Shown: piece by piece, positions 1,067-2,211 of the stretch
How the letters are laid out: the number at the start of each line of letters is the position of its first letter
Position numbering within the stretch: position 1 is the first letter of the stretch
Source: Candidatus Neomarinimicrobiota bacterium
GTDB taxonomy: Bacteria > Fidelibacterota > SORT01
Direction: 5' to 3'
DNA length: 39,033 bases
Assembly (NCBI GenBank): GCA_022573815.1
Contig: JACZTG010000021.1
Location: 1-39,033, forward strand
Position numbers and translations under genes: made by a program
The notes under the pieces: generated by a model
The model's input: only the letters and a program-made list of their open reading frames with translations
Databases searched by the model: none
What the model was told of the DNA's origin: nothing

Positions 1067-1085
1067 GATGACCTTGAAGGTCATC
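1067..1085. repeat. Perfect inverted repeat (9-bp arms, 1-base centre) between the sensor gene and selD
   Basis: GATGACCTT, a central G, then AAGGTCATC. The arms are fully complementary. There is no T-run directly after it, so it is not a typical intrinsic terminator. It lies 20 bases upstream of the putative selD -35 box, which would suit a dimeric regulator's operator; this is inference. Confidence 0.5.
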
Positions 1086-1105: not shown

Positions 1106-1134
1106 TTGACATCTCAAGTGAATGTAGCTAAATT
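1106..1134 (+). promoter_or_regulatory. Putative sigma-70 promoter of selD
   Basis: A perfect -35 TTGACA at 1106-1111, a 17-base spacer and -10 TAAATT at 1129-1134 (4 of 6 match). Transcription would start near 1141, about 27 bases before the selD start, leaving room for the AGGAG at 1156-1160. Confidence 0.5.
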
Positions 1135-1167
1135 GATTTTGGAAATTATTTTATTAGGAGCTAAAAA

Positions 1168-2211
1168 ATCGTTGAAAGAGTAAAGATAACTAAGTTTTCG
1201 ACTTCAGGCGGCTGAGCTTGTAAGCTAAGTCCGGAGGACTTACGAGAATTGGTTTTTGATCTGCCGACAGGATCAAACGAAAATCTTATGGTGGGTTTTA
1301 AGAGCTATGAGGATGCGGCTGTATATCGTCTTTCAGATGAGATTGCATTGGTTCAGACGGCAGATTATATAACTCCGATGACAGACGATCCACATCTGTT
1401 CGGGCAGCTAGCTGCGGCGAATGCTTTGAGCGATATCTATGCAATGGGAGCAAAACCCATTACAGCTCTCAATCTTTGTAATTTCCCGGACAAAGGTATT
1501 CCAAATTCTATATTCAAAGAGATACTTGAAGGAGGCGCTCAAAAGGTTTTAGAAGCAGGCGCGGTGATTGCAGGCGGACACTCCATCAAAGATAATGAGT
1601 TGAAATATGGATTGTCAGTTTCGGGAACCATTCATCCGGATAAAATCGTGCTGAACTCGGGCGGAAAAATCGGCGATCTGCTTATTCTGACTAAACCCAT
1701 TGGAACAGGAGCTCTATTTAATGCGGTTAAAAACGAGGCAATTGATTCTCAGTGGCTTGATGCTGCAATAAGGAGAAACTCCGTATTAAACAAAAATGCT
1801 TCCGAAGCAATGATTAAACACGGTGCAAACGCATGCACCGACGTCACTGGTTTTGGACTTTTAGGACATCTATATGAAATGTTGTCTAAATTGGAATTGA
1901 CCGCCGAAATAACTTCATCCGGTATTCCGTATTTTGAAAAGGCTTTCGAAGCTGCGGAAAAAGGCTTTAGACCGGGAATGTCAAACTCTAATATGCACTC
2001 ACTGAGGTCCACTGTGAAATTTGATTCAGCGGTATCGGAAGCGGATAAATGGTTGCTGGTAGATCCTCAAACTTCTGGCGGATTGATGATTTTTATTGAG
2101 GAAGAAAAGGCGGAAGCGTTACTGAACGAAATTAAATCAGACGATTCTCCTGAAGCAGCGGTCATAGGCATATTGACTGAACAGACCGATACAAAGATTT
2201 TAGTAAAGTAA
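1168..2211 (+). CDS. selD: Selenide, water dikinase, a selenoprotein (Sec16 = UGA at 1213-1215)
   Basis: SelD makes selenophosphate from selenide and ATP for Sec and selenouridine synthesis. From 1249 onward the frame encodes SelD (LPTGSNENLMVGF, QTADYITPM, AGGHSIKDNELKYG, TDVTGFGLLGHLYEM, PQTSGGLM). Upstream in the same frame the sequence reads VKITKFSTSGG-UGA-ACKLSPEDL, which aligns with the SelD active-site loop (GCGCK in E. coli; GUGCK in Sec-containing forms). The UGA therefore falls exactly at the catalytic Cys position, with Cys18 and Lys19 conserved. A stop at 1162 and the lack of ATG, GTG or TTG codons leave ATC at 1168 as the best start: it is 7 bases after AGGAG (1156-1160) and gives 347 residues, the length of E. 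coli SelD. A gene caller would truncate the protein to start at TTG 1249 and lose the active site. ATA at 1186 is the less likely alternative start. Confidence 0.92.
1213..1242 (+). promoter_or_regulatory. Bacterial SECIS element (UGA plus stem-loop) within selD
   Basis: TGA at 1213-1215 is followed by a perfect 7-bp stem, TAAGTCC (1226-1232) pairing with GGACTTA (1236-1242), capped by the 3-base loop GGA (1233-1235). Seventeen bases separate the UGA from the loop, and the loop begins with G. Both agree with the published bacterial SECIS rules (loop G among the first two bases, spacing 16-37 bases). SelB would bind this hairpin in the mRNA to direct Sec insertion. Confidence 0.85.

Follow-up and report, generated by a model that had tools for sequence, protein, structure and literature searches.

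A selenocysteine-containing SelD with a probable AUU/AUC start codon in a Candidatus Neomarinimicrobiota bacterium

The window, i.e. the whole stretch of 39,033 nucleotides that was analysed, carries on its plus strand (1168..2211) the gene selD for a selenide, water dikinase (selenophosphate synthetase) of 347 residues, in which an in-frame UGA at the catalytic position is almost certainly read as selenocysteine (Sec) and translation very probably starts at a codon other than AUG, GUG or UUG. For the joint reading, a Sec-containing SelD with translation initiating at position 1168, we estimate a probability of about 0.88; the possible regulatory role of the start codon stands outside this estimate. 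Sec-containing SelD as a gene type is already known. The source genome belongs to the Candidatus Marinimicrobia/Neomarinimicrobiota, a lineage of uncultured marine bacteria, and its order was covered by five genomes including the source (in the following G001 to G004 are the relatives), with class-level and order-level searches returning the identical five. Three of the five share one genus and are therefore not independent. The relatives used include the Neomarinimicrobiota MAG B25T3L8 as well as Candidatus Marinimicrobia MT.SAG.2 and MT.SAG.3, which are single-cell genomes judging by their names.

Leader and start codon of selD

The upstream neighbor of selD is a sensor kinase/receiver gene, and between the two genes an intrinsic-terminator-like hairpin is located at 1067..1085 on the plus strand (one site compared to 0.1 expected from shuffles). 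It is followed by a sigma-70-like promoter, TTGACA-17-TAAATT, at 1106..1134 of the same strand with 10 of 12 matches. The five genomes of the order all share this promoter as TTGACA-17/18-TAAMTT, while the intergenic DNA around it is much less conserved. A Shine-Dalgarno sequence AGGAG is found at 1156..1160 (plus strand), 7 nt upstream of the proposed start, and the four relatives carry AGGA or AGAGG 6-8 nt ahead of the corresponding codon. A search of the leader for Rfam elements gave chance-level matches only.

Between the in-frame stop codon TAA at 1162-1164 and the UGA, no in-frame ATG, GTG or TTG is present in the source genome, and the same applies to G001 and G004, which are free of these triplets in any frame from the -10 box to the UGA. 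What is present in five of five genomes is ATC (1168..1170, plus strand, in the source) or, in each of the four relatives, ATT. This codon stands 33-35 nt past the -10 box and 45 nt ahead of the UGA, with the Shine-Dalgarno sequence 6-8 nt before it. In G003 a TTG lies in register but is followed by an in-frame TGA ahead of the ATT. G002 contains an extra in-frame ATG five codons upstream of the ATT, with no Shine-Dalgarno sequence before this ATG and one after it. The combination of an absent canonical start, a well-placed Shine-Dalgarno sequence and a conserved non-canonical codon was thus found in four of the five genomes, G002 having the additional upstream ATG. Outside the order, ATG (GTG in locus L038) stands near the equivalent place, and in the nearest of these relatives (L014) the ATG is one codon farther from the UGA. 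Because a usable canonical start is missing and an aligned ATC/ATT with Shine-Dalgarno sequence and promoter spacing is available, we infer that selD translation in this order probably starts at AUU/AUC. Position 1168 had already been given as the start in the preliminary description, and this position coincides with the one proposed here; the description had passed over the ATC codon and the missing canonical start. Both the proposed rare start codon and the UGA recoding cause standard gene callers to lose the active-site end of selD. Within a search restricted to open-licence papers, the combination of selD and an AUU start codon was not found described, and the titles of papers retrieved for both Marinimicrobia and selenoprotein point to other phyla.

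Start codons were surveyed in 1.16 Mb of the source genome and 1.12 Mb of G002, comprising 435 orthologue pairs. About six genes of the source and about four of G002 have no canonical start at their conserved N-terminus, as counted by eye from a filtered list. Examples are infC (ATT/ATA in the source, TTG in G002) as well as a CTG-started methyltransferase gene and rluD of G002, these gene names being assigned by reading the sequence. Genes without canonical start in one genome were located on C4 (L055, infC), C6 and C2 of the source and at C50:149119 of G002. With about ten further genes lacking a canonical start in either the source or G002, the selD start may be a sign of general tolerance and not of control specific to selD, and the lineage as a whole may be tolerant of non-canonical starts. 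The Sec-containing SelD and its AUU/AUC start would then both be real, with start selection relaxed in about 1% of the genes and no regulatory meaning attached to it, a reading to which we give a chance somewhat short of even; the rate of about 1% comes from one genome pair of this lineage. Against this reading, the other genes of the survey have a canonical start in the partner genome, whereas selD alone keeps a non-canonical codon throughout: it is without usable canonical start in at least four of the five genomes, and AUY together with a Shine-Dalgarno sequence is found in five of five.

A canonical start in a short upstream frame, followed by a programmed frameshift into the selD frame, was also considered. 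In the source genome, TTG 1139 opens a frame that runs across a stretch of six A (1163-1168); a -1 frameshift on this stretch would lead into the selD frame at ATC 1168. This TTG is located only 4 nt past the -10 box and hence probably ahead of the transcript start, and no such frame can be conserved in the start-free leaders of G001 and G004. The frameshift is very improbable and was rejected as unconserved.

The in-frame UGA and its decoding

From 1168 to 2211 the selD frame is interrupted solely by the TGA at 1213..1215 (plus strand) and terminates at the TAA 2209-2211. Its translation after the TAA 1162-1164 reads K-IVERVKITKFSTSGG-U-ACKLSPEDL. The predicted protein matches the SelD model TIGR00476 with 364.5 bits (cut-off 125) over profile positions 2-310 of 311, compared to 337.1 bits for the ORF from TTG 1249, so that the N-terminal part is worth 27 bits. 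The best solved relative is 2yye, a selenide, water dikinase with a close sequence match that we take to be the SelD of Aquifex aeolicus; Sec16 and Lys19 of the catalytic motif GG-U-ACK align with its Cys and Lys. Each of the five genomes of the order encodes a SelD with a single TGA, always at this codon, the relatives being 69-73% identical to the protein of the window. Upstream of the UGA, changes are most frequent at third codon positions (for example 4/3/7 for the first, second and third positions between the source and G001, and 2/1/8 between G001 and G003). Elsewhere in the phylum, most SelD copies likewise contain one TGA. Further copies form fusions with a NifS-like cysteine desulfurase, with Cys at the position of the UGA in those read. 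These fusions were observed at L016, L032, L034 and L036 in other families of the phylum.

Directly downstream of the UGA a SECIS hairpin with a 7-bp stem and the loop GGA is predicted at 1226..1242 (plus strand). Its letters are TAAGTCC-GGA-GGACTTA, with 10 nt from the UGA to the stem and 17 nt from the UGA to the loop. Of all TGA triplets counted over 1.16 Mb of source sequence, 0.59% are followed by a perfect 7-bp stem anywhere in the SECIS search range and 0.017% by the exact geometry of this hairpin. In a comparison of 14 sequences, which represent Campylobacterota as well as the order and the phylum, 85.7% of the helix cells are paired, compared to 13-63% in slid versions, and compensatory changes, seen in the wider relatives, affect two of the seven pairs (7 cells). 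The covariation score was reached by none of 500 shuffles. Within the order the five genomes all keep the hairpin, with GGA or GGC as loop and a G near the loop start; outside the order the inner pairs are kept and the two outer pairs are frequently wobble pairs or broken.

The source genome also encodes the machinery for Sec decoding. A tRNA-Sec with anticodon TCA was detected with 64.5 bits, above the Rfam cut-off, and selA (545 bits) and selB (359 bits) are adjacent to each other on C1, both with an ATG close to the expected N-terminus. On these grounds the selD of the window is with near certainty a gene for a Sec-containing SelD. The preliminary description had proposed a TGA at the active-site Cys/Sec position, a conserved SelD N-terminus upstream of the called ORF in the same frame, and a 7-bp stem with loop GGA beginning 10 bases past the UGA with 17 bases to the loop, and had expected selA, selB and tRNA-Sec elsewhere in the genome; all of this was borne out by the comparisons and searches above.

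If the UGA were a real stop, the gene would start at TTG 1249, as in the mechanical ORF list, and encode a SelD-like protein that lacks the catalytic segment. Homologues starting at this TTG with no conservation upstream, which the preliminary description had named as evidence against its own reading, were looked for. The aligned codon is TTG in the source and G001, the remaining three genomes having CTG or CTT, and the upstream segment is conserved as protein in all five. A start at TTG 1249 would moreover drop the catalytic Cys/Sec and the Lys, and a real stop is at odds with the Sec machinery present in the genome. The truncated SelD was rejected on the basis of the upstream conservation and is even less probable than the frameshift. 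The least probable explanation, a UGA read as an ordinary amino acid under a changed genetic code or a decaying gene, can practically be set aside, since the search for support found none, all five genomes keep an open frame past the UGA with 69-73% identity, hairpin and Sec machinery are present and the fused relatives have Cys at the UGA position.

A second gene with an in-frame TGA was found by family search. A SelW-like gene (Rdx, PF10262), located in the source genome at C5:18424-18633 (L194 1528) and also found as L193, L195 and L196, contains one in-frame TGA in four of the five genomes, followed by a SECIS-like hairpin; its protein sequence around Sec is NISIEYCDV-U-GYLPQA and its start codon is TTG or ATG. 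selU/YbbB, standing for a second use of selenophosphate, did not reach the cut-off in any of the order's five genomes, with short fragments only. Selenophosphate therefore appears to be used solely for making Sec, which goes into SelD, the SelW-like protein and perhaps others. In a scan for conserved in-frame TGA codons, covering about half of the source genome and part of G002, antisense frames swamped the output and after filtering selD alone was clear; the scan is insensitive, because it had not brought out the SelW-like selenoprotein.

Proposed mechanism and possible role of the start codon

Initiation of selD translation would occur at AUC 1168 (AUU in the relatives), guided by the Shine-Dalgarno sequence, on a short leader transcribed from selD's own promoter. 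SelB together with Sec-tRNA-Sec would read the UGA as selenocysteine, and the resulting SelD, as predicted from its sequence, would make selenophosphate. This would feed SelA for the synthesis of SelD itself and of at least one other selenoprotein, the SelW-like protein. Starts of the AUU/AUC type are weak and discriminated against by IF3 in the bacteria in which they have been studied. As a weak start subject to this discrimination, the codon may hold SelD synthesis low, which is the least certain step of the mechanism.

A dedicated translational throttle, with IF3 acting at initiation and UGA recoding at elongation as a two-level control of selenium use, is a tentative and rather doubtful extension. 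If it existed, the enzyme which supplies the selenium donor and needs this donor for its own synthesis would be limited at two levels. The non-canonical start and the UGA recoding would place two rare decoding events, separated by 45 nt, near the 5' end of a single gene. If the proposed start is correct, selD becomes one more of the few genes known to keep a non-canonical start, and the lineage is worth a start-site survey.

Comparison with known systems

SelD proteins containing Sec occur in Haemophilus influenzae and Aquifex aeolicus. Sec-containing SelD ranks among the selenoprotein families with the widest distribution in bacteria (PMC1794560, PMC9312934). The gene of the window resembles other bacterial genes of this kind in the catalytic UGA, the SECIS element directly downstream and the presence of SelA, SelB and tRNA-Sec in the genome, and differs from them in its proposed start codon AUC/AUU instead of AUG, GUG or UUG. 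The Neomarinimicrobiota lineage is not discussed in the literature found on bacterial Sec-containing SelD.

With regard to the start codon, infC of E. coli starts with AUU. In Streptomyces, sigR starts with GTC in 32 of 34 species and with GTT in the rest, and is repressed by IF3 (PMC5472188), and in S. aureus non-canonical starts have been described for infC (AUA), cvfC1 (AUU) and ccpN (AUA) (PMC13009471). sigR and the three S. aureus genes are precedents for non-canonical starts with a regulatory function. selD is not among the examples found of genes with conserved non-canonical starts. Like infC, sigR, cvfC1 and ccpN, the selD of the window combines a good Shine-Dalgarno sequence with a weak start codon that is kept across relatives. 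As a difference, other non-canonical starts occur in the lineage of the window as well, and the selD start is proposed from sequence.

Within the same phylum, the SelD domain of the NifS-SelD fusions belongs to the same protein family as the SelD of the window; the fusion proteins differ from it in their length of about 740 residues and in the Cys that replaces Sec.
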